A stretch of DNA of 64,000 nt, from positions 62,001 to 126,000 of the forward strand of contig CABYDT010000002.1 in NCBI GenBank assembly GCA_902517865.1, read 5' to 3'. Under the pieces are notes generated by a model. That model saw only the letters and a list, made by a program, of their open reading frames with translations. It was not told the origin of the DNA and ran no database searches. The position numbers and the translations under genes are program-made. This stretch comes from an uncultured Pelagibacteraceae bacterium (lineage in GTDB: Bacteria > Pseudomonadota > Alphaproteobacteria > Pelagibacterales > Pelagibacteraceae). Position 1 is the stretch's first letter, and every line of letters begins with the position of its first letter. This document shows positions 3,781 to 64,000 of the stretch, one piece after another.

Positions 3781-5003
3781 TGCTTAAAGTTTATTACCTC
3801 ATCACTTTTTTAATTAATTATTTAGTTCCTCTTATCTTAAAATTCAGATTATTAAAAAAAAAAGAAGATCCAGATAGATACAAAGAGAAATTAGGAAAAT
3901 ACATAAAAAATACACCTGATGAATACATATGGTTTCATGCTTCGAGTTTAGGGGAATTAAAATCTATAGAAAAACTTATTAAACCACTAATGTCTAATTT
4001 TTCTAGTAATTATAAAGCATTAATAACAACTTCTACTAAAAGTTCAGGTGATTATGCAAAAAATATCTCAAATGACCAAATTATTCATCAGTATGCCCCA
4101 ATTGATACACCTCAAATAATTATAAGATTTTTAAATCATTGGAAGCCAACAATTGGAATATTTATTGAAGCAGAAATTTGGCCGAATTTAATAATTGAAT
4201 GTGAAAATAAAAATATTCCATTAATATTACTTAACGCAAGATTTTCCCCTTCAAGTTTAAGAAAATGGGGATTAATTCAAAATGTTTTTGTTACTATTAT
4301 GAGAAATTTTAAAATTATTACAACTATGAGCAAAACTATTAAAGAAAAATTAACACTAATGGGTTTAAATAACGCTGAATTTATTGGAAATTTAAAATTT
4401 TATAATTCAGCTAATCAAATAAAAAGTAAAAAAAACGCAAATAATTTTGTAGGTATGTCTATACATCCAGGCGAGCTAAAGTTTTTAATTTCTGCTCACC
4501 AAAAAATATTGCAAACTCAAAAAAACTTTACATCAATTATAATACCAAGACACATAAATAAAATATATAAATTTGAACAATTACTAAAAGATTTAAATTG
4601 TACTTATACTAAGTATTCTGAAAATAATAAGGTAACATCAGGTATTATCTTAGTAGATAAATATAATATAGCTGAAAAGTTTTTTAATTATTCAAATGTT
4701 GTTTTTATGGGCGGTTCTTTCATAAAGCATGGCGGACAGAATCCATTAGAGCCAGCAAGAAAAAATTGTAAAGTTCTACATGGTCCATCAATATATAATT
4801 TTGATGAAATTTATGAATTCCTTAAAAAAAATAACGTATCATCACTGGTAAAAAATGAAGATGATTTGGCAAAACAAATACAATTAAATTTGAATAATTC
4901 CTCTGTAGAAAACTTTAATAATATTATTGACTCGTATGGGTTAGAAATTTTTAATAATACACTTAATAAAGTGAAAAATTTTATAGATAATGAAATTAAG
5001 TAA
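3780..5003 (+). CDS. waaA: 3-deoxy-D-manno-octulosonic acid (Kdo) transferase WaaA
   Basis: A 407-residue GT30 enzyme that transfers Kdo from CMP-Kdo to lipid IVA on the cytoplasmic side of the inner membrane. An N-terminal hydrophobic stretch is followed by HASSLGE (about residue 54), the EAEIWPN motif, and GGSFIKHGGQNPLEPA near the C-terminus, which are hallmarks of KdtA/WaaA. The gene begins at the stop of the ABC transporter and overlaps lpxK by 14 bases, so the LPS genes form one translationally coupled operon. Whether it adds one or two Kdo residues cannot be read from the sequence. Confidence 0.92.
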   Translation: MLKVYYLITFLINYLVPLILKFRLLKKKEDPDRYKEKLGKYIKNTPDEYIWFHASSLGELKSIEKLIKPLMSNFSSNYKALITTSTKSSGDYAKNISNDQIIHQYAPIDTPQIIIRFLNHWKPTIGIFIEAEIWPNLIIECENKNIPLILLNARFSPSSLRKWGLIQNVFVTIMRNFKIITTMSKTIKEKLTLMGLNNAEFIGNLKFYNSANQIKSKKNANNFVGMSIHPGELKFLISAHQKILQTQKNFTSIIIPRHINKIYKFEQLLKDLNCTYTKYSENNKVTSGIILVDKYNIAEKFFNYSNVVFMGGSFIKHGGQNPLEPARKNCKVLHGPSIYNFDEIYEFLKKNNVSSLVKNEDDLAKQIQLNLNNSSVENFNNIIDSYGLEIFNNTLNKVKNFIDNEIK

Positions 5004-8949: not shown

Positions 8950-10212
8950 ATGAAGGTAGCAATAATTGGAAGTGGGGGTAGAGAGCATTCTATTTGCTAT
9001 AAACTTAAACAATCAAAAAATCTCAAAAAACTTGTATGTATACCTGGTAATGCAGGAACAGCTCAAATTTGTGAAAATTTAAATGTTGATATATCAAATT
9101 TTAATCAACTGTATGACGAATTAAAAAAAAACGAGATTGATATAGTTATTGTAGGTCCAGAAGTTCCTCTCGTTGAAGGTATAAAAGATTTTTTAGAGGA
9201 AAAATGTATAAAAGTATTTGGTCCTTCTAAAAAAGCATCTCAACTTGAGGGGTCTAAACTATTTTTAAAGAATTTTTGTTCTGAATTTAAAATTCCATCA
9301 GCTCGGTTTCAAGAAGTAAAAAATTTAAGTGAGGCATCTGACTGTATTAATAAATTTGGTCTTCCAATTGTTGTGAAGTCAGATGGGTTAGCAGCAGGTA
9401 AAGGTGTTACTATTTGTAATAAAAAAGAAGAGGCACTTAATGATGTCAAAGCAATATTTAGTGGAAAATTTAAATCTTCAAAAAAGGTAATTTTAGAAGA
9501 ATTTTTAAAAGGAGAGGAAGCTAGTTATTTCGTTATTACCGATGGAGAAGATTTTTTACCAATAGGCACAGCACAAGATCATAAAAGAATATTTGAAAAT
9601 GATGTTGGTCCAAATACTGGCGGTATGGGTGCATATTCACCTTCCTATTTGATAACAGATGATATTGAGTCAAAAATAATTAATAGAATTATTAAACCTA
9701 CGTTGGCAGGAATGAAAAAGATTGGCTCACCTTTTTCAGGAATTTTATATGCCGGACTTATGATAAATAATGGCGATCCCAAATTAATAGAATACAACAT
9801 TAGATTTGGGGATCCAGAGTGTCAAATACTCATGATGAGAATGAAAAGTGACTTTCTTGAAATAGTAATAAATACGATTGAAAAAAATCTAAAAAACAAA
9901 AAGATAGAATGGTATGATTACCCGGGTATAACAATCGTAGCATCTAATAAAGGTTATCCAGGTGATTACGATAAAAGCACAGTCATAAAAAATTTAAATA
10001 AGATTGATCAGAATGAAAATATTCAAATTTTTCACGCTGGAACATCAAATGTTAATGGAGAAATTATCGCAATAGGTGGACGAGTATTAAATTCAACAGT
10101 CACAAACAAATCTCTGAAAATAGCTCGCGATGAAGCATTACGAGCTCTTGATAAATTAGAATGGGAAAATAAATATTATAGACGTGATATAGGATGGAGA
10201 GTAATAAAATAA
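8950..10212 (+). CDS. purD: phosphoribosylamine-glycine ligase PurD
   Basis: A 420-residue GAR synthetase, which joins phosphoribosylamine and glycine with ATP in purine synthesis. The N-terminus has the GSGGREHS motif, the ATP-grasp core has SDGLAAGKGV and GPNTGGMGAYSP, and IRFGDPECQ supplies metal-binding residues. The length is usual. Its stop directly abuts the stop of tadA on the other strand. The region upstream is only 21 bp, so its promoter must overlap xseA. Confidence 0.95.
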   Translation: MKVAIIGSGGREHSICYKLKQSKNLKKLVCIPGNAGTAQICENLNVDISNFNQLYDELKKNEIDIVIVGPEVPLVEGIKDFLEEKCIKVFGPSKKASQLEGSKLFLKNFCSEFKIPSARFQEVKNLSEASDCINKFGLPIVVKSDGLAAGKGVTICNKKEEALNDVKAIFSGKFKSSKKVILEEFLKGEEASYFVITDGEDFLPIGTAQDHKRIFENDVGPNTGGMGAYSPSYLITDDIESKIINRIIKPTLAGMKKIGSPFSGILYAGLMINNGDPKLIEYNIRFGDPECQILMMRMKSDFLEIVINTIEKNLKNKKIEWYDYPGITIVASNKGYPGDYDKSTVIKNLNKIDQNENIQIFHAGTSNVNGEIIAIGGRVLNSTVTNKSLKIARDEALRALDKLEWENKYYRRDIGWRVIK

Positions 10213-13440: not shown

Positions 13441-13919
13441 CTGTCTTTTCCTTGCCTTTGATAAGTTCATTAATTAACAAAAGAATAATTCCAATTGTTA
13501 TTGAGATATCAGAAACATTAAAAACAAACCAGTGAAAATTATTATAATGTAAATCAATAAAATCTGGTACGGCCTGATAATACAATCTATCGAAAAAATT
13601 ACCTAAAGCTCCCCCAAGCAAAATAGACAAACATATTTTTTCAAAAATCTTGTTAGATGTAATAATCATATAAACTATGAAACCTAATATTATGAAAATT
13701 GCTAAAGATATCATGTGATAAGTTAGGTTTTCACTATCAAAAAAACCAAATGCAATTCCTTTATTCCAAATTAAAATAAAGTTTAGGAAGGGATTTATAT
13801 AATACTCGTTTTGACCACTAGAAAAAAAGTTAATGATCCAAATTTTACTTATACGATCTAACAAAAAATTTATAGTAATAATAAATAAAACTAAAATATT
13901 TTGTTTAAATTTTAATTGG

Positions 13920-16701
<2,782 letters not shown>

Positions 16702-54509: not shown

Positions 54510-54599
54510 TGGCGGAGAGAGCGGGATTCGAACCCGCGAAAGAGTTGCCCCTTTACACACTTTCCAAGCGCGCGCCTTCAACCACTCGGCCATCTCTCC
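54510..54599 (-). tRNA. tRNA-Ser (GGA), 5' half supplied by the integrated element
   Basis: A 90-base type II tRNA: acceptor GGAGAGA with TCTCTCC, G73 and encoded CCA; anticodon loop TTGGAAA with GGA; long variable arm; T arm GGGTTCGAATCCC. The 5' half is repeated at 59927-59975, so it was replaced on insertion. Position 28 is now G, giving a G-U pair with U42, whereas the displaced copy has A and would form a normal A-U pair. The gene should still be functional. Confidence 0.93.
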
Positions 54600-54606
54600 A
54601 TCATCT
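54558..54606 (-). repeat. left attachment repeat, inside the intact tRNA-Ser
   Basis: From the anticodon stem-loop to the tRNA 5' end plus 7 flanking bases. It differs from the right copy at 54571 (C versus T at 59940) and 54579 (C versus A at 59948). Crossover was presumably near the anticodon loop, since the rest of this copy came from the element. Confidence 0.9.
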
Positions 54607-54893
54607 GGATAGAGATTAGCAGGAGGATAAAGCTACGATTATCGAACCTTTCTCTAACATTCTAATTACAGTTTATATCTTATAATAACCTAGATGTTAA
54701 TTACAAAGTAACGTCTGTTGACGTCCATGTGGAGTCACACAACGGCCGTAAAAGATTCGCGCGCTGTTGCGCGCTCAGCTTTTGTTCCTGGGGAGGTAAA
54801 AAGATACTAAGACCTTTTGTAAATTTGAAGTTCTTAAAATAGTCGATCCGGGTAAATACAATTATGTATAGATTATATTACGTATATTACTAA
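54607..54893. other. non-coding left end of the element
   Basis: No convincing gene. It holds TAACATTCTAA (54655-54665), whose exact reverse complement occurs at 59856-59866 near the other end, and TTGACGTCCA (54718-54727), matching TTGACGCCCA (59826-59835). It also has a GC-rich hairpin (GCGCGC TGTT GCGCGC, 54759-54774). The tRNA-Ser promoter must now lie here, since its natural upstream region was displaced. Integrase arm sites, a packaging site or a terminator are the candidates. Confidence 0.65.
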
Positions 54894-55157
54894 CTAATGG
54901 ACAATCTCTCGTTCTTTTTTGATATAATTTATTAGCTTATCATTACGTCTAATAAACTCTTTTGCAATTCGATGAAGTTCTCTCATCTCCTTTTGTTTTT
55001 TTTTAATAATGCCTAGTAGCTGTTTTATATCTTTGTCTTTCTCTAGTAATTCTTTTTGTTGTTTCTTGCATAACTTCTCTAATGCTTTGTAATCGACTCG
55101 ATTATGCTCACAAGGATATACGTAGACTCCGTTACTATTTATTCTCTTCTTTAGCAT
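54894..55157 (-). CDS. small coiled-coil protein of the satellite
   Basis: An 87-residue, strongly charged protein. The central part KQQKELLEKDKDIKQLLGII and the following KKKQKEMRELHRIAKE have heptad spacing of a coiled coil. I chose the ATG at 55157, which has GGAG about 10 bases upstream; an ATG at 55172 adds five residues. It overlaps the terminase-like gene by 23 bases. It is the last gene of the operon. No family is recognised; a capsid-scaffold or adaptor role is only a guess. Confidence 0.65.
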   Translation of the reverse strand: MLKKRINSNGVYVYPCEHNRVDYKALEKLCKKQQKELLEKDKDIKQLLGIIKKKQKEMRELHRIAKEFIRRNDKLINYIKKEREIVH

Positions 55158-55605
55158 TAATCCAATCTCCATAATCTTCGATTATTTTTTTCATCTTACC
55201 TTCTAACTCCTCTTCTGATGCATCAAGGATAGAGTGTCTATTCATCGTCATTAACTTATCAATATAAAATCCTGCACATTTACCACGTAACTCTTCTGCT
55301 CTAACCGCAACACCAATCATACCTTTTCTACGTGCCTCATCACGTAACTTACCTAAAAAAGAAATATGGTTAGGTTCTGATATTTTGTATTTCTCCAAAT
55401 ATTCAGATTTATATTTTGATATTTCATTTACTACGTTTGGGCATATTTTAGGGTTAGTTAATTCATATGCCCGTTGATATGCTGATCCATCTTCATATCC
55501 TGCACGTTTTGCACATTCTGTTTTTGTAAGTTCACCGTCAGACTCCACTAACAGACGTACAAATTCCTTTTGTTTATCTGTTAGTGGTTTATCAATCTTT
55601 TTCAT
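55135..55605 (-). CDS. terS: terminase small subunit-like protein
   Basis: A 156-residue protein. LTDKQKEFVRLLVESDG and TKTECAKRAGYEDGSAYQRA form a helix-turn-helix with the look of the Terminase_2 family, followed by LTNPKICPNVVNEI and AVRAEELRGKCAGFYIDK, the usual C-terminal oligomer helices. Phage TerS recognises the packaging site and hands DNA to TerL. There is no TerL here, so it may redirect a helper phage's packaging motor. It overlaps both neighbours by a few bases. Confidence 0.72.
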   Translation of the reverse strand: MKKIDKPLTDKQKEFVRLLVESDGELTKTECAKRAGYEDGSAYQRAYELTNPKICPNVVNEISKYKSEYLEKYKISEPNHISFLGKLRDEARRKGMIGVAVRAEELRGKCAGFYIDKLMTMNRHSILDASEEELEGKMKKIIEDYGDWINAKEENK

Positions 55606-55976
55606 CGTGACCTCTTATTCAATGCATTAATAATTACAGTTCCTATTCCAGATTGTAACTGACGTTGGAAATCATCTTGCATTGGCTGCATTGGTGGCAG
55701 CGTTTGTATGTTTTGTGCATCTATTCTCTTTTGCAAATCAATTAACATTTCAGCGACAGTGTTAGAAACAGGGGGTACGTTAGATACCTGTTTTGATTTT
55801 GATCGACCTCTACGTGGATCGTAGTAGCTTTTTTTTGAATCGTTTCTTGTCAAATAAGCCATTACGTTCTTATTGTAATAATCTGACGTTATATCATCAG
55901 GCACTTGTTTTACTTTATCTGCTCCATATTCTAGATCATCTATTGTAAAGTCTTTCATTCCTTTTTCTTTTTTCAT
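55602..55976 (-). CDS. satellite protein of unknown function, 124 residues
   Basis: Not recognised. The first third is acidic (DDLEYGADKVKQVPDDITSD), the middle has a basic YYDPRRGRSKSKQ stretch, then a Pro-rich linker (TLPPMQPMQDDF) and a C-terminal helix. The mix of disordered linker and basic patch could suit a DNA- or capsid-binding adaptor, but that is speculation. It overlaps the unknown gene upstream by one base and terS by 4. Confidence 0.6.
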   Translation of the reverse strand: MKKEKGMKDFTIDDLEYGADKVKQVPDDITSDYYNKNVMAYLTRNDSKKSYYDPRRGRSKSKQVSNVPPVSNTVAEMLIDLQKRIDAQNIQTLPPMQPMQDDFQRQLQSGIGTVIINALNKRSR

Positions 55977-56365
55977 TACTCTAACTCCGCTTTTAATTTA
56001 GCTAACTCGTCTCTTGCACTTTCAATAATGTATGCCTCGTAACTATTGGTCGGGGACAAAGAGGCAAGGAACTCGAGCTGACCAATTTGTGTATCCAGAT
56101 CGAATGGTTTTCCACCACCTTGCATTTCCTGTCTACGTTTATATTCCGCAAACATCTTCATAGATAAACCTAAACCTGGGTTCTCTTTTTCTATTAAAGA
56201 ATCTGCTCCGATAATCCCGCCATCAGCTTTTTTTATCTTTGGTTTGTCTTTTTGAAGTCTTCTATACTTTGCATCTTCAGCGACCATGCGCATAAAGTCC
56301 TCCATTATCTTGTTCAAACGTCTTGCACTTTCTGACATTGGAACAATAGGTTTCTTATCTGTCAT
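55976..56365 (-). CDS. satellite protein of unknown function, 129 residues
   Basis: Not recognised. It starts MTDKKPIVPMSESARRLNKI and has a basic stretch KDKPKIKKADGG, of the kind common in pelagic phage proteins, and a Gly/Pro-rich loop before LGQL-type helices (IGQLEFLASLSPTNSYEAY). Its start shares ATGA with the primase-helicase stop, so it is co-translated. Confidence 0.6.
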   Translation of the reverse strand: MTDKKPIVPMSESARRLNKIMEDFMRMVAEDAKYRRLQKDKPKIKKADGGIIGADSLIEKENPGLGLSMKMFAEYKRRQEMQGGGKPFDLDTQIGQLEFLASLSPTNSYEAYIIESARDELAKLKAELE

Positions 56366-58140
56366 ATTATATTCTCCTTATCTTTTTCTTTTTGTTTGTT
56401 TTGTATTTTGTAAAATTGTGATTTGGATATTGAGTGTTCTTCATGTTTCTTCATATCTTCAGTCCAGGAAGTATGACCCTCGTCTATCCAATACTGATAC
56501 GCTAATTCTTTCTTTGGTTTTGCTTTCTCTATTTCATAGTACGTCCACTCCGCATTATCTTCGCTAATACATGCAACGTAGTCTTTCTTATATTTTGCTA
56601 TTGCTTTACCTCTCAACTTCTCAACTGTAACAACCATCAAATGAACACGGCTCAAGGTGCACTGATCCTCTTCATTCTTTTCCGGTCTTCTCATTCTAAT
56701 ACTGCAATTAATCGGTCGCTCTTTCATATTAGAACCTGATGAGGTTCCAGTAGATTTAGTTTCGTGATGGAGGAAGATAATTGTATATCCATCACTTCGT
56801 AAATTAATTAACCATTGCATAAACGGTTTAACCTGAGCACCTTCTTTTTCATCAAGGGACGTTAAGTAAGTTAAGTTATCGAGTATGATAACGGGTTTAT
56901 CATTCCAACGTTCTTCTATTTGTTTAATGTTAGCCTCAAGTCTTTTTTGACCTGACTCAAAGTTAAGTGGATCAATACCACCGTTCATTTGCAAACCTAA
57001 CGTTATTAATTTTATTCTATCTGTATCGATAACGATTTTGCGATCTGAATAACTGGAAATAAATTCACACATACGTTCTTGTAAATCTGTTTCAGTCATC
57101 TCGCCGTCCACTATTAAAACTGGAGTTTTAGATTTGTTATGATTTTGGTATTTTAAGAAATCCAGGCCACTTGCTATGGATAACGTTAAACCCGCAGTAA
57201 ATAAGGTCTTTCCAACGCCTGTCTTGCCATATATCTGTGTGATGCTGCCTTTCTCAATTATTGGATATAATAGATATTCTTTTGGTGGAAATTCCTTTGC
57301 TATGAAATCAGTTAACGACAAAGCAGTGTATGGATCAACCTTATCAACCTTAACTTCGTTAATATAATTAAATATATTTCCAACGATACTTTTATCTACA
57401 TTAATAAATGATCCTAGTTCAGTTATTCCATATGTAGGTTTTTTATTATCGTAACCTTGTTTGATACGTTTAACTTTATCTTTCCTGTTTTTTATTTCTC
57501 CATCATTATTGTCGATGCATAGACGTTCAATAAAGTCTTCCATTTCATCAATACTTAATTTGGAATGACGAACCAAGCAGCCAGCAACACGCATAATATA
57601 ATCGTCTCTTTGACCTGCACCACTTTCAGGATAGTATTTTGATAGATACGTTAATGCACCAATCTTACCGACATTAAACAACAATGATTTATATTCGTTT
57701 TCATCATTTAATTTATATGGTTCAACGTCTTTAATAACTTTCCTACTATCAGCCAGGAACACGCTTTGAGTATTATGCAATACTTCAATTATCTTTTTAC
57801 CTTTACCTGGTGACCTATCTGCCTTGAATGCAAATAACTTTGTGTCTCCATCGTAAGAGTAAAATTGCTGATAACCCTTAACTGTTTTTATAGTTAACGT
57901 ATTATTCGGCAGCAAGCTGCGAAAGTTCCAAGCAGCAGCGTCATCGTAATCTACCGCAATGATATTAGATTCTTTGTGCATGATTCCTGCAGCACGGGCC
58001 ACGGCAAAATCATCATCTGTCCAATCAACGCCTTTCCAATGACCATTCTTTTCATGTGGTTTTTTTGTATCAGGATTAACCGGTACGAATTTAAGATTAT
58101 ACGTTTTATATTTATTTATTTGTTCGAGAAGATTATTCAT
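56362..58140 (-). CDS. primase-helicase replication protein
   Basis: A 592-residue protein. The first 270 residues look like a prim-pol/bifunctional primase domain (FVPVNPDTKKPHEKNG, the acidic IIAVDYDDAAAW near residue 60). The C-terminal half is a RecA-type ATPase: IYGKTGVGKTLFTAG (Walker A, about 304-311), IVDGEMTETD, VIILDNLTYL (Walker B, about 415) and FLHHETKS. The layout matches RepA/AAA_25-type helicases of satellites and phages. The element can thus probably start its own replication. The ATG at 58140 overlaps the upstream gene by 8 bases; one at 58155 is also possible. Confidence 0.82.
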   Translation of the reverse strand: MNNLLEQINKYKTYNLKFVPVNPDTKKPHEKNGHWKGVDWTDDDFAVARAAGIMHKESNIIAVDYDDAAAWNFRSLLPNNTLTIKTVKGYQQFYSYDGDTKLFAFKADRSPGKGKKIIEVLHNTQSVFLADSRKVIKDVEPYKLNDENEYKSLLFNVGKIGALTYLSKYYPESGAGQRDDYIMRVAGCLVRHSKLSIDEMEDFIERLCIDNNDGEIKNRKDKVKRIKQGYDNKKPTYGITELGSFINVDKSIVGNIFNYINEVKVDKVDPYTALSLTDFIAKEFPPKEYLLYPIIEKGSITQIYGKTGVGKTLFTAGLTLSIASGLDFLKYQNHNKSKTPVLIVDGEMTETDLQERMCEFISSYSDRKIVIDTDRIKLITLGLQMNGGIDPLNFESGQKRLEANIKQIEERWNDKPVIILDNLTYLTSLDEKEGAQVKPFMQWLINLRSDGYTIIFLHHETKSTGTSSGSNMKERPINCSIRMRRPEKNEEDQCTLSRVHLMVVTVEKLRGKAIAKYKKDYVACISEDNAEWTYYEIEKAKPKKELAYQYWIDEGHTSWTEDMKKHEEHSISKSQFYKIQNKQKEKDKENII

Positions 58141-58330
58141 CTGAATTCTCCTCAACTTCTTTTTCTAATTTTATTGTACTTTTAATTAGTCTTTCTTTGG
58201 TGTAGCCAGGCGCAACTGCTTGCATCATAGCCAGTGTTTGATCTTCGTCAAACATACCAAACGCAAGTGCTCTAGTGCCATGGGTTGGTATATCGGGTTT
58301 GATTAATACGTTGTAGTATCTTTTTGTCAT
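58133..58330 (-). CDS. small protein at the head of the satellite operon
   Basis: A 65-residue protein, MTKRYYNVLIKPDIPTHGTR at the start, then an acidic C-terminus (LEKEVEENSDE). The ATG at 58330 has a good AGGAG 8 bases upstream; a longer frame to 58366 lacks one. No helix-turn-helix is obvious. Being first after the repeat-rich spacer, it might be a regulator or replication accessory. Confidence 0.65.
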   Translation of the reverse strand: MTKRYYNVLIKPDIPTHGTRALAFGMFDEDQTLAMMQAVAPGYTKERLIKSTIKLEKEVEENSDE

Positions 58331-58366
58331 TAGTTTTCTCCTAAAATTAAATTTAAGAGCGGGCAA

Positions 58367-58822
58367 TAAAGGTGGGTATTATGTTGTTAACTCATATATG
58401 GACGCCACGAATAACACCCGCTCAATGAGATACTTACTAATGATGTAATGAGATATAACAGTTAACAGACCGTTTTACAAATTTATCATTATTAAATATC
58501 TGATTTTATTTTTGAGGAGTGTCTGTTCTGACCTCGCATGGTTTTGAGTTCCAAGAAACTTGATTCAGTTTTAATCTTTTTTGATTTGTTTTGCAAGTGA
58601 ACTCACTAATTTATTTTCAGAGTGATATGTCGAACAGTGTGCGCTAAGTCACTGTTTATTTATGTTTCTTGTTTCATGGCACAAGCAGCAAGGTGCACGG
58701 ATCAGTGATTTAACAGGCCCTCTTTGGCAGCATTTTGAGTCTCATAATATAGAACCCTATATAGATGAGACTATGAGACTATATATATAATTAAAGTCTT
58801 ACCGTCTCATTTACGTAGGTAT
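58367..58822. other. repeat-rich spacer upstream of the satellite operon (possible origin/operators)
   Basis: No gene over about 15 codons is found. GTCTCAT or its complement ATGAGAC occurs four times in 72 bases (58739-58745, 58765-58771, 58773-58779, 58804-58810), with AT-rich stretches between. An inverted repeat AACAGTG-10 bases-CACTGTT lies at 58633-58656, and AATGAGATA occurs twice around 58424-58455. Iterons for the replication protein, or operators for phage-dependent induction, are the likely meanings. Confidence 0.55.
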
Positions 58823-59809
58823 TTACTTTTGAGACCTCAATTTATTAGACAAATGTTTAGCTGATATGTTTGCATATTTTTTAACCATCTCAGCTGATGA
58901 CCACCCACCCTGTGCCATTAGTTCAACTGTACTCCAACCAGACTCAGCCAGGAATGTAGCCCCTGAATGTCGAATATCATGAAATCGAAAGTTACTAATA
59001 TTGGCCCTTTTAACTGCCCTTCTAAATTCCTTATCAATTATAGATATGGATATTTTAGGGAATATGCTGCCATCAATATTTCTAGGTAGATTTCTAATTA
59101 TCTCACAAGCTCTAACAGATAAACCAATACGTCTCTTTTTATTATTCTTAGTTACCATTAGCTGCGCTGTACCATCATTTAAATTACAGTCATTTATAGA
59201 TAAGTTAAGAACCTCACCTCTTCTGCATATAGTTTCAAATGCAAGTTCAACAATATACTTTAAATAGTACAAACTACTTTTTGAACATTCATGCAGTAAT
59301 CTTTTATATTCATCTGCTGTAAGTACCCTGTCTCTATGTTCTGGGTCTCTAGGTAATGATACAAGTTTAACTGGGTTGTTATTGATTGGAATACCCAACT
59401 CACGTTGTCCAATATTAAATACTCTACCAAGTAGCAGCAACTTCTTGCGTACAGTGGCAGGTGCATTATCTTTTGCTAATTCATTTTTTAATTTAGCAAT
59501 CTTAACTGGTGTTATTTGTGCTAGTGGTAGCTTAGCAATATCCAATCGACACATTGAGTCTATTTCATAAGTAAAGTTCTTTAGACGTCTAGAACTATCC
59601 TTAGTGTGATCGTAGTATAACTTGAGTAAATCTCTCAAGGTAATAGAAAACAATTTATCTCTATCTTGATATGATCCAGTCTCTAACTCAGTTAACGTTT
59701 TATGCCCCCAGGCGATGGCGCTGCTTTTTTTATGAAACGACTTTTGTAAACGGCTGCCTTTGTATCTCAAGCAACATTGATACAGGTTACCTCTTTTTCT
59801 AACATACAT
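58823..59809 (-). CDS. int: tyrosine-family site-specific integrase
   Basis: A 328-residue recombinase. The N-terminus MYVRKRGNLYQCCLRYKG is an arm-binding-type beta fold, then a SAM-like core-binding domain. Catalytic residues are Arg in ICRRGEVLNL (about 195), His-x-x-Arg in HDIRHSGATF (about 277-280), Trp in GGWSSAEM and the nucleophile Tyr in MVKKYANIS (about 311). The ATG at 59809 with AAGGAAA upstream is preferred to one at 59836. It lies next to the right repeat, as usual for tRNA integrases. Confidence 0.92.
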   Translation of the reverse strand: MYVRKRGNLYQCCLRYKGSRLQKSFHKKSSAIAWGHKTLTELETGSYQDRDKLFSITLRDLLKLYYDHTKDSSRRLKNFTYEIDSMCRLDIAKLPLAQITPVKIAKLKNELAKDNAPATVRKKLLLLGRVFNIGQRELGIPINNNPVKLVSLPRDPEHRDRVLTADEYKRLLHECSKSSLYYLKYIVELAFETICRRGEVLNLSINDCNLNDGTAQLMVTKNNKKRRIGLSVRACEIIRNLPRNIDGSIFPKISISIIDKEFRRAVKRANISNFRFHDIRHSGATFLAESGWSTVELMAQGGWSSAEMVKKYANISAKHLSNKLRSQK

Positions 59810-59926
59810 AACTTTTTCCTTTCTATTGACGCCCACACGACGTCCAGCTGTATTGTTAGAATGTTAATGTTTGATAAAAGCTAGAAAAGACGGGACAAAA
59901 ACGACAGAACACTTTGCAGGTTTCTC
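59810..59926. promoter_or_regulatory. integrase arm-site region at the right end
   Basis: Contains TTGACGCCCA (59826-59835) and GACGTCCA (59839-59846), and TTAGAATGTTA (59856-59866), the exact inverse of the left-end element. Their symmetric position 49 and 60 bases inside the two repeats suggests binding sites for the integrase N-terminus or an excisionase. Confidence 0.5.
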
Positions 59927-59975
59927 CACTTTCCAAGCGTGCGCCTTAAACCACTCGGCCATCTCTCCATCATCT
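59927..59975 (-). repeat. right attachment repeat: displaced native 5' half of tRNA-Ser
   Basis: The 5' half of tRNA-Ser with A28 and U in the D loop, and the last codons of the glycosyltransferase gene that flanked the tRNA before insertion (stop codon one base from the tRNA 5' end). It is not a functional tRNA. Confidence 0.9.
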
Positions 59976-60863
59976 AAATAACCTCAATATTGATCTAAAA
60001 TAAAATTTAGTTTTAAGTGCTAAAATTTTACTTTTGCTTTCTCCCTTATATTCTGAAATACTTTTACTAAACAAGTTATCTTTTTTATATTTGCACAAAT
60101 ATCTACCAGATAATTTCATTTTTTCTTTTCTATAAAAATAATTATTAGTAGCATGAATAGTAAAACAGCCAGGATGTAAATTGTTCTTTATTTTTGGAAT
60201 AACGGTCGCAGTATATCGGTCCATGTTTAGTCCATGCCAACCAGTAGCAGACATTTCAGTAATTCCATAAAAAGTTCTAAAATTTTTACCTTTCCATTTA
60301 AATTTCCACCACTTGGTTTTGATGAAATTTTTAAAGTCCTTTTGATCATATATCCAAAGACAATAATATGGAAATCCCACAATAAAATACTTAGTATTTT
60401 TAAAATCTATATATTCTTTTAGTTTATTCTGTAAGTGAAATGAATAATAATCTTTGATACCCTTTTCTAATACTAGAAAGCCAACATTTAACTTCTGATT
60501 TTTAAGAACTGAATTATATTTTAACCAATAATTAAAATTGTTTTTATTAAATAAAATATCATACTCTATATACATAAAAAAATTGTATTTATTTTTTTGC
60601 TGCTCCATTACATCTCTAACAGCCCAAGTTAAATAGCCTTTGCTAAGTTGATCTTTAGACAAGTTATGATGAACTAATTTACAATTTAATTTTTTATTTT
60701 TAAGAAAAGAGTCATGACAATGCACATAGATATCTTTTTTGATTGGTAATGTTTGAAGTGAATTTAGACTTTTCTTTAAAAAAAATAATTTTGTTTTATT
60801 AAGTGGCTTAATTTTTTCGTCAGGTTTCTCATTAAAAAAGGGAATGTGAATAGAAATTTTCAT
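59970..60863 (-). CDS. glycosyltransferase-like protein
   Basis: A 297-residue protein. It starts MKISIHIPFFNE, a GT-A type N-terminus, has KKDIYVHCHDS, FMYIEYDILFNKNNFNYWL with an Asp-containing DxD-like position, and GWHGLNMDRYTATVIPK. It resembles putative glycosyltransferases of unassigned family. The stop codon lies inside the attachment repeat, so its last codons belong to the repeat. Before insertion it was one base upstream of tRNA-Ser. Confidence 0.7.
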   Translation of the reverse strand: MKISIHIPFFNEKPDEKIKPLNKTKLFFLKKSLNSLQTLPIKKDIYVHCHDSFLKNKKLNCKLVHHNLSKDQLSKGYLTWAVRDVMEQQKNKYNFFMYIEYDILFNKNNFNYWLKYNSVLKNQKLNVGFLVLEKGIKDYYSFHLQNKLKEYIDFKNTKYFIVGFPYYCLWIYDQKDFKNFIKTKWWKFKWKGKNFRTFYGITEMSATGWHGLNMDRYTATVIPKIKNNLHPGCFTIHATNNYFYRKEKMKLSGRYLCKYKKDNLFSKSISEYKGESKSKILALKTKFYFRSILRLFR

Positions 60864-60946: not shown

Positions 60947-61912
60947 ATGAAAATATTTATTACAGGAGGCGCTGGTTTTATTGGGTCACATATATGTGAA
61001 AAACTATATGAGAGTATACCAAAATCAAAACTTTTAATTTTAGATAAATTGACATATGCAGCTAATAAAAGTTTTTTGTCAAAAATTTTAATAGATAAAA
61101 AAAGAGTTAAATTTTTACAGGCCGATATTATAAATAGTAATAAGTATACAAATCTCATAAAAAATTTTGATTTGGCAATAAACGTTGCTGCCGAAAGTCA
61201 TGTGGATAGATCTTTTACAAACTCAACATTATTTACAAAGACAAATACTTTTGGAGCGCATATTTTTTTTCAAAATTGTTTAAACGCAAAAGTTAAAAAA
61301 ATTATTCATGTAAGTACAGATGAAGTTTACGGTGAAAAATTATCCGGAAGTTTTAAGGAAAATGATAAACTGAATCCAACAAATCCTTACTCTGCTTCCA
61401 AAGCGGCTGCAGAAATAATAATAAATTCTTACAAGTATCACCTTAAATCAAATATTTTAATTGTTCGAGGAAATAACATTTTTGGCAATCGACAATACCC
61501 CGAAAAGTTAATTCCTTCGTGTATTTATAACGTATTAAAAAACAAGCCAATTAAACTTCATGGAAATGGTAAAAATATAAGGTGTTACTTGTCTGTTTAT
61601 GATTTTGCTGATGCGATTTATTTACTAATTAAAAAAAATAAGATTGGAACCTACAATATTGGTAATAATAAATATTTTAAAAATATAGAAATTGCAAAGT
61701 TAATTTGTAAAGCTTTAAATGTTAACCCAAGAAAATACATTAAATTTGTCAAAGATAGGCCCTTTAATGACAAAAGATATTCCATTAATATTTCTAAAAT
61801 AAAAAGTATAGGTTGGAAACCTAAAAGAGATTTAAGAAATGAGATAGAAAATATTATTAGTTGGTATTCAAAAAATTATAAAATCTTCAAGCTTAAGATA
61901 TCCAATCTTTAA
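60947..61912 (+). CDS. rfbB: dTDP-glucose 4,6-dehydratase
   Basis: A 321-residue SDR. FITGGAGFIGSHICEKL (intact GxxGxxG), DKLTYAANKSFLSK, AAESHVDRSF, HVSTDEVYGE (Thr-Asp-Glu), NPYSASKAAAEI (Tyr-x-x-x-Lys) and RGNNIFGNRQYPEKLIP follow the RmlB pattern. It makes dTDP-4-keto-6-deoxyglucose for rhamnose and related sugars. The ATG at 60947 is chosen; a TTG one codon earlier is also in frame. It ends with a 20-base overlap with the convergent GT17 gene. Confidence 0.9.
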   Translation: MKIFITGGAGFIGSHICEKLYESIPKSKLLILDKLTYAANKSFLSKILIDKKRVKFLQADIINSNKYTNLIKNFDLAINVAAESHVDRSFTNSTLFTKTNTFGAHIFFQNCLNAKVKKIIHVSTDEVYGEKLSGSFKENDKLNPTNPYSASKAAAEIIINSYKYHLKSNILIVRGNNIFGNRQYPEKLIPSCIYNVLKNKPIKLHGNGKNIRCYLSVYDFADAIYLLIKKNKIGTYNIGNNKYFKNIEIAKLICKALNVNPRKYIKFVKDRPFNDKRYSINISKIKSIGWKPKRDLRNEIENIISWYSKNYKIFKLKISNL

Positions 61913-62705
61913 ATATATTTTTATTATGTAAAATATACTCTGGTAAATATGTATTGTTCATTGGAATTTTTTTAAATTTCTTGTCCCTCTCATATAAATC
62001 TTCAAGATTATTAATTTTATTCTTTATTTGCTCAATATTTTTATATTTATCTAAATTAAATTCTTGATGAGGAGATGAACTAATTTTATTAGCTATTTCC
62101 TCAGCAGTCATCAAATAGGAAAAATGCCAACCGCCTTGATCAATCTTAAAACTTTTTTTAAATTTATCAAAACGCCAAAACGGTAAAAAAGAATTTTTAA
62201 GAACAACGCTTCGTAATTTCTTGAAACTTTTCAAATTTTTCTTTAATATAACTCTACTTCCTTCCCAGTGATTTTCATATGAAGTAAGAATATTTAATCT
62301 ATAATAATATAAATATTGTAAAAATATTCCTACATATCCATCCTTTAATTTATTTTTATAATGTTCACTAAAACATGATAGGTTAGGAATTTCATCAGCA
62401 TCGGAAAAAATTATAATATCATTGTCATTTGCTTTTGATAGTCCTTTTAATAGAAAATCTCTTTGGTAATCTTGTCTCTGCCAACCTGAAAAATTTTTAG
62501 GAAAATTATCTAATTTAAGATATATTATTTTATTTTTGAATTCCTCAACTGCATCAATATCAAATTTATAATTTTTTCTCCTCCCCATATGATCTTCTCC
62601 GGACTCACATATAACAAAGAAATCAACGTAGTTATTTAAGGTATTTAACCTTATTTTAGTAAGCAAATTTTCATTATTAAAAATAAAACAATCAAATATT
62701 TTCAT
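61893..62705 (-). CDS. glycosyltransferase family 17 protein
   Basis: A 270-residue protein that begins [20 protein letters not shown] and has FFVICESGEDHMGRRKNY, IIIFSDADEIPNLSCF with a DAD metal motif, and GGWHFSYLMTAEEIANKI. These are the signatures of GT17 (beta-1,4-N-acetylglucosaminyltransferase-like) proteins. It likely adds a sugar to LPS or capsule. It shares bases with the lepA stop. Confidence 0.85.
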   Translation of the reverse strand: MKIFDCFIFNNENLLTKIRLNTLNNYVDFFVICESGEDHMGRRKNYKFDIDAVEEFKNKIIYLKLDNFPKNFSGWQRQDYQRDFLLKGLSKANDNDIIIFSDADEIPNLSCFSEHYKNKLKDGYVGIFLQYLYYYRLNILTSYENHWEGSRVILKKNLKSFKKLRSVVLKNSFLPFWRFDKFKKSFKIDQGGWHFSYLMTAEEIANKISSSPHQEFNLDKYKNIEQIKNKINNLEDLYERDKKFKKIPMNNTYLPEYILHNKNIFKDWIS

Positions 62706-64000
62706 TAACTATCTTTATTGATTTTTAACACGCCAATAAAAGCTTCCTGGGGAATTTCAACACTTCCAAATTGCTTCATTCTAGCTTTACCTTTTTTTTG
62801 TTTATCTAAAAGCTTTCTTTTTCTGTCTCTGGCACCCCCACCATGAATTTTGGTAAGTACATCTTTTTTATAGCCTTTTATAGTTTCCCTAGCTACAATT
62901 TTTCCTCCAAGAGCGGCTTGAATTGGTATTTGAAATTGATGTCTTGGTATTAAATCTTTTAATTTTTCACAAACTAATCGACCTTGTTTTGCTGCAAAAT
63001 CTTTATGAATAATCATAGACAAGGCATCTACTGGTTCTGAATTAACTAGTATACTTAACTTTGTTAAATTTCCTGGTTGATAACCTAAAAGTTCATAATC
63101 AAAACTGGCATAACCGCTTGATATTGATTTAATCCTGTCGTAAAAATCAAAAACAACTTCATTTAAAGGCATTTCATATTTTAATACCGCGCGCGATCCT
63201 GAGTAGCTTAAGTTTTTTTGAATACCTCTTTTTTCTTCACATAGCTTTATTATCGAGCCTAAATACTCGTCCGGGGTAATCAATGTTGCACTAATCCAAG
63301 GTTCATTTATCTCTTTTATTAAATTTGGTTCAGGCATATTGGAAGGATTTTGTAAATCAATTGTCTCTCCGTCATTTTTTTCTAGTTTGTAAACTACTCC
63401 AGGTGTAGTTGTGATTAAATTAATACCATACTCTCTGCTTAATCTTTGTACTACAATTTCAAGATGTAATAAGCCCAAAAACCCACATCTAAATCCCAAT
63501 CCTAATGCTGAAGAATTTTCAGGTTCATAAGAGATAGATGAGTCATTTAGTTTTAATTTTGCGATACTATCCTTTAATAAACTATATTCAGAACTATCTA
63601 CCGGAAACAAACCACAAAATACAACAGGTTTACTAGGCTTAAATCCAGGTAACGGCTTATCAGTTGGGAGTTTTGCGTGAGTAATTGTATCTCCAACTTT
63701 TGTGTCTGAGAGATCTTTAATACCAGTTACTATAAAACCAATTTCACCCGGGCCAATTTCATCACAATCTACAGGCTTTGGTGTAAAAAATCCTACTTTT
63801 TCTACTTGGTATTTTGATCCAGAAGACATCATCATAATTTGATCATTTCTTTTTATTTTACCATCTATCACACGTACTAAAGTAACAACACCAAGGTAAC
63901 TATCATACCAACTATCAACTAATAAAGCTGATAATTTATTTTCTAAAATTCCTGAAGGAGATGGAAGTTTATTAATTATAGTAGATAAAATTTTATCAAC
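62705..64000 (-). CDS. lepA: elongation factor 4 (LepA), C-terminal part
   Basis: The 3' 431 codons of a minus-strand gene that runs out of the window at 64000; the GTP-binding domain is missing here. Seen are [18 protein letters not shown] (domain II, translated by hand from bases 64000-63872), [34 protein letters not shown], the C-terminal LepA domain with [17 protein letters not shown], and [19 protein letters not shown]. LepA acts on ribosomes during stalled or stressed translation. A GTG at 63871 is not the start. Confidence 0.95.

Follow-up and report, generated by a model that had tools for sequence, protein, structure and literature searches.

The window analysed here, a stretch of 64,000 nt from an uncultured Pelagibacteraceae bacterium, is part of contig C2 (175 kb) of a 0.96-Mb draft genome, which consists of 16 contigs and is 85.6% complete. 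An intact tRNA-Ser(GGA) gene is located on the minus strand at positions 54510-54599 (ARAGORN; Rfam tRNA match at 54513-54599, minus strand). The region between tRNA position 42 and the seventh nucleotide before G1 (54558-54606, minus strand) is found a second time at 59927-59975 on the same strand. The resulting direct repeat of 49 bases corresponds to tRNA positions -6 to 42 (the first 42 bases of the tRNA and seven upstream bases), and 47 of the 49 bases are identical. One mismatch is in the D-loop near position 20 (G in the intact gene, T in the fragment) and the other at position 28 (G and A, respectively); the block from -7 to 19 is free of mismatches. Since the E-value of the 49-base match in the whole genome is 5.8e-17, a chance repeat can be excluded. 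The unit from repeat to repeat is 5369 bp long (about 5.4 kb). The intact gene forms its left end, with the 3' end of the gene adjoining the left flank; the truncated 5' half is found at the right end of the unit. This is in agreement with a preliminary description of the locus, which had the repeat extending from the anticodon loop to the 5' end of the tRNA and had placed an element on the 5' side of the gene, restoring its 5' half.

The integrated element between the two repeats (54607-59926) has all its assigned genes on the minus strand, reading toward the tRNA. A tyrosine integrase (58823-59836; Pfam Phage_integrase, 1.2e-29; phrog_1, 1.1e-59) is encoded co-directionally with the tRNA, with 91 nt between its start codon and the displaced tRNA fragment. 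The other assigned genes encode a helicase/primase-like replication protein of the AAA_25/KaiC-type ATPases (56362-58155; Pfam 2.4e-24; phrog_239 and phrog_906) and a protein resembling the terminase small subunit (55135-55605; phrog_51, 1.1e-8; Pfam Terminase_2, 1.8e-5, slightly below the cutoff), which is 42% identical to TerS of the Pelagibacter phage HTVC027P. Three small ORFs in the ORF listing (54894-55172, 55602-55976 and 55976-56365, minus strand) are without Pfam match. By eye and by sequence comparison, candidate arm-type sites of the integrase were recognized at the left end (TTGACGTCCATGTGGAGT, 54718-54735, plus strand) and at the right end of the element (TTGACGCCCACACGACGTCC, 59826-59846, plus strand).

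The combination of an integrase with a helicase/ATPase and a small terminase of pelagiphage type fits a TerS-carrying phage satellite, which is the likeliest reading of the element. According to the Pfam and PHROG profiles, it combines the integrase with a replication gene of its own and with a small terminase similar to that of a local phage. Genes for capsid, tail and large terminase were not detected with Pfam and PHROG among its ORFs, three of which are without assigned function. Related helicase, terminase and integrase genes are present on the IMG/VR contig L190, which is only a hint that such an element might be packaged in helper-phage particles. Scanning of viral contigs singly with the integrase and with the helicase protein revealed no relatives, and the helicase had no match in the phage collection. 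A pattern for the 5' half of the tRNA retrieved five complete tRNA genes only from the viral contigs, and a free attP of the element was not found in these scans. The integrase alignment was too diverse to yield a scanning pattern.

The host side of the locus

The right flank starts with an ORF of 297 aa (59970-60863, minus strand), the TGA of which lies one base before the truncated G1. The preliminary description had given this end position correctly, but its designation of the ORF as a glycosyltransferase gene found no confirmation, Pfam giving no match at E 0.5. A GT17-family protein is encoded by the next ORF but one (61893-62705). Further outward, the window contains the 3' part of lepA (62705-63871, minus strand), which is conserved as a host anchor gene on the upstream side of tRNA-Ser across Pelagibacterales. 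AG-359-E06, the sister genome (G001, locus L140), has an ORF homologous to the 297-aa ORF which stops 3 nt before an intact tRNA-Ser gene; beyond it, the gene order of the window is kept as far as lepA, with amino acid identities between window and sister, from the tRNA outward, of 61, 87, 87 and 99% (lepA). In 11 further records of Pelagibacterales, tRNA-Ser follows the stop codon of lepA at a distance of 0-7 nt. Based on the synteny with the sister and on this adjacency of lepA and tRNA-Ser across Pelagibacterales, the right flank corresponds to the original upstream side of the tRNA, and the 297-aa ORF to its original upstream neighbour. Thus the displaced half lies beside the former neighbour gene and the intact tRNA at the opposite, left end, as had been proposed. 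The decrease in identity from 99% at lepA to 61% beside the tRNA suggests that strains have exchanged DNA along the stretch next to the tRNA.

In most other Pelagibacterales loci, 0.8-5.8 kb of variable genes separate the lepA stop codon from tRNA-Ser, and this interval is a hotspot of gene gain. On the 3' side of tRNA-Ser, insertions of approximately 0.7-1.5 kb without integrase, bounded by 3' tRNA fragments, were observed in L140, L179, L180, L181, L182 and L183, those in L179 being in tandem. The insertion of AG-359-E06 (L140:961-2503) encodes a MrcB_N/NO-VEIN-C protein, which is possibly involved in defence. Paired motifs of the GACGCC type are present near the ends of the element (at the two candidate arm-type sites given above) and near those of the L140 insertion (about 1090-1110 and 2350-2370). 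They could be shared integrase arm sites, in which case the insertion could be mobilised in trans. Elsewhere in the genome, a degenerate 3' half of tRNA-Ser(GGA) (G000:C1:98738-98793, L002) is flanked by an epimerase-like ORF and a further small gene.

Related elements and the crossover point

A search with the window integrase among 397 genomes of the order revealed 18 with a relative, and 14 elements could be typed by their tRNA repeat. The 5' part is restored by seven of them, namely the element in the window (Ser), L050, L051, L175 and L176 (Met), and L173 and L178 (Gly); the other seven, L045, L046, L048 and L049 (Met), L047 (Lys), L169 (Asn) and L170 (Arg), restore the 3' part. Since L175 and L176 represent almost one and the same element in two hosts, 6 of 13 is the safer count for the 5' type. 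This count excludes four integrase loci of the 18: L171 contains a tRNA-Met 3' half with the intact partner beyond the contig, L172 gave no repeat, L174 is at a tmRNA near the contig end, and L177 is in a riboswitch and not in a tRNA.

In L177 (genome G337), the related integrase element is flanked by two copies of a glycine riboswitch aptamer, one partial (9524-9579; 56 nt, 95%) and one intact (13887-13974), just upstream of a gcvT-like ORF, and it is the 5' side of the RNA that is restored. We found no precedent in the literature for a glycine riboswitch as integrase attachment site. L046 (genome G055) contains three tRNA-Met 3' halves, at 4692, 10365 and 11754, suggesting that elements may be arranged in tandem there.

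The 5'-type repeats span tRNA position 1 to positions 41-56, and the 3'-type repeats extend from positions 22-33 to the 3' end. A segment of about 33-41, which is the anticodon loop, is common to all 14 repeats, and for this reason we take this loop as the likely place of the crossover, which would account for both kinds of elements. The closest integrase relative of the window element, that of L047 (41%), has a 3'-type repeat starting at tRNA position 32. All 5'-type repeats begin at G1 with 0-7 extra bases, as is required for rebuilding the gene; the identity upstream of G1 comprises 7 nt in the window versus 0-3 nt in the other elements of this type.

Elements of both kinds are intermingled in the integrase tree, and at least four changes between them are forced by well-supported branches. 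The 5' and 3' labels are not more clustered on the tree than shuffled labels, and thus 5' restoration is not the property of one integrase clade. In all 14 typed elements the integrase start codon faces the att site at a distance of 17-129 nt. In five of the seven elements of each kind, the integrase is co-directional with the tRNA and located downstream of the original upstream region of the tRNA (exceptions: L175, L176, L045 and L169). The element in the window and L047, and likewise L051, L048 and L049, make up the two closest groups that contain both kinds. Since the direction of the integrase relative to the tRNA is constant within each of them, the switch between the two kinds there would be explained by a change in which arm of attP holds the tRNA half, and not by reversal of the integrase.

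Origin of the restored 5' half and of its promoter

We consider it probable that a satellite-like element was integrated at the anticodon loop, on the 5' side of the tRNA, and brought a 5' half along. In this scenario, the anticodon loop of the host tRNA-Ser(GGA) would have been the site of recombination with a small tyrosine-integrase element, most likely a TerS-carrying phage satellite, whose attP would have held the 5' half of the tRNA and seven additional bases on the arm pointing away from int. Upon integration, the 3' half of the host gene would have been joined to the 5' half of the element and to the element DNA upstream of it, which would then have to provide the promoter of the tRNA. 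The 5' half of the host itself would have been left beside the old neighbour at the far end, now just upstream of int. Thus the intact gene most likely consists of a 3' half of the host and a 5' half of the element.

In the preliminary description, the native copy was to be recognized by base 28, and the alleles are indeed as described there (G28-U42 in the intact tRNA, A28 in the displaced half). A28 was expected in a sister genome without the insertion, and G28 in such a genome was regarded as contrary to the proposal. AG-359-E06, which has nothing inserted on the 5' side of its tRNA, carries G28 and the same D-loop base as the intact copy in the window, and the two tRNAs differ only at position 7. 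The wobble pair G28-U42 was therefore dropped as a marker of the foreign half. Among approximately 90 pattern-matched tRNA-Ser genes, the sister is the only one in Pelagibacterales to share G28 and the D-loop base of the intact copy, and T20/A28 of the displaced fragment is the allele common in other Pelagibacterales. T20/A28 is also present in the 3' tRNA fragment which bounds the insertion of AG-359-E06. Since both alleles occur in the lineage, base 28 cannot decide which half is native. The two versions of the tRNA fold with almost the same energy (-37.4 and -37.8 kcal/mol).

Some points do not favour the anticodon-loop scenario: the identity upstream of G1 is longer than in the other 5'-type elements, and in view of the sister tRNA the 5' half of the intact gene may be native. 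The element would then have been joined upstream of the tRNA or within its first approximately 19 bases, the intact tRNA would belong wholly to the host, and the 5' half of the truncated copy would be a leftover of homology in attP; the tRNA would still have been parted from its old neighbour. The single difference to the sister, the common allele in the fragment and the perfect match of the block from -7 to 19 would all be in line with this possibility. On the other hand, all 14 repeats include the anticodon loop, and an extension of the 5'-type repeats to positions 41-56 would be needless if crossover took place at the 5' end. Further, T20/A28 in the fragment of the sister is joined to the 3' half of this lineage, and the loss of identity between lepA and the tRNA points to exchange between strains. 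Taken together, we regard a wholly native intact tRNA as unlikely.

Such exchange, as homologous recombination between strains at a later time or as gene conversion between the two copies, could also mean that the present alleles are no record of the integration. The steep gradient of divergence toward the tRNA among close relatives and the variability of the site on both sides would fit, but an extra event is required and the geometry is explained without one, which makes this explanation quite improbable. An assembly chimera or a chance repeat, which could be considered for a draft genome of this contig number and completeness, is hardly credible in view of the integrase beside the repeat, the host synteny on the far side, the length of the contig and the occurrence of 5' repeats of this type in six other elements.

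We therefore favour an element-borne 5' half of the intact copy with good confidence. Since the base-28 argument fails and the stretch adjacent to the tRNA is divergent, this reading is based on the geometry of the repeat, and it follows from a crossover in the anticodon loop.

Additional information on the DNA in front of the restored genes came from L175 and L176. The 60 nt before their restored tRNA-Met are identical, whereas the DNA before their fragments is host-specific, which argues that the DNA preceding a restored tRNA belongs to the element. This supports the earlier suggestion that element-side sequence is now in front of the tRNA-Ser gene. A terminator-like hairpin is located between the element genes and the tRNA (54759-54774, minus strand; three found in the hairpin scan versus 0.2 expected), and a candidate element-borne promoter, TTAACA-17-TATAAA, is present at 54672-54700 (minus strand), its hexamers alone being not above chance. 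About 150 nt flanking this candidate promoter resemble the DNA upstream of tRNA-Ser in SCGC AAA288-G21 (score 64; best of 300 shuffles, 46), including a TTAACA-17-TAAAAT pair. Upstream of tRNA-Ser in AAA288-G21 (L098), only these approximately 150 nt of resemblance and no integrase were found. Promoter scores upstream of the restored tRNAs, taken one by one, did not exceed those of shuffled sequences. From the sequence comparisons we infer, on good grounds, that the element supplies the promoter of the tRNA.

Comparison with known elements and implications

Integration with restoration of the 5' part is a known class. In the Islander survey, 159 of 3919 islands (4%) had a 5' tDNA fragment and 3760 a 3' fragment (PMC4383910), which bears out the earlier statement that most tRNA integrations restore the 3' end. 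As in the 5'-fragment islands of Islander, an integrase lies inside the interval in the window, the 5' fragment precedes the intact tRNA and shares its orientation, and the repeat runs through the anticodon loop. The length of 5369 bp falls in the Islander range of 2-200 kb, and the fragment overlaps only the final codons of an ORF in which Pfam detects no domain. Inclusion of the loop in the repeat, as in all 14 typed elements, would be compatible with Islander class A (crossover in the anticodon loop). The Islander islands differ in that the 5' layout is rare among them, while it is found in about half of the typed Pelagibacterales elements, which are only 2.6-8.4 kb long. The case of Sinorhizobium meliloti, in which phage-related sequences occupy the 5' end of tRNA genes, also differs, in host and in frequency (9/88, 10%; PMC11476347). 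The 5'-type share of 6/13 gave a Fisher p of 6.7e-6 against Islander and of 0.004 against S. meliloti, the survey methods being different and the sample small. Thus, the element is ordinary in kind, and its notable aspect is the high 5' share among small Pelagibacterales elements: restoration of the 5' part is rare among published islands and accounts for about half of the small integrase elements typed in SAR11-type genomes.

The closest phage integrases found (28%) are the related ones of the Pseudomonas phages PAJU2, Ab31 and YA3. A tRNA-Ser gene is also the integration site of YA3 and Ab31 (PMC7326022), but YA3 restores the 3' end (attB comprises the last 63 bp of the gene and 1 bp), and all three are full prophages of about 45 kb. 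L045 (G161) and L046 have integrase, helicase and small terminase genes in the same order as the element, with 46-47% identity of the terminase; they differ in that both are in tRNA-Met and restore the 3' half. PICMIs (PMC10803314) and tycheposons (via PMC10872708) are likewise small integrase elements of marine bacteria. The element described here carries a pelagiphage-like small terminase.

Based on the census, it is tempting to propose, although with slightly less than even confidence, that small satellite-like elements of SAR11-type bacteria repeatedly switched between 3' and 5' restoration of host RNA genes. The 5' kind would put essential tRNAs (Ser, Met, Gly) and one gcvT glycine riboswitch behind element DNA, with int usually behind the old upstream region of the host tRNA.

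In the usual tRNA integration, the host promoter stays in place and the 3' end alone is replaced. Elements of the 5' kind would make an essential tRNA of the host dependent on upstream sequence that arrived with mobile DNA. Should half of the small elements of SAR11 do so, the rule of 3' restoration would be lineage-dependent. SAR11 satellites could then serve as a system to learn how attP acquires tRNA halves and promoters, and whether the retention of the element gains from it.
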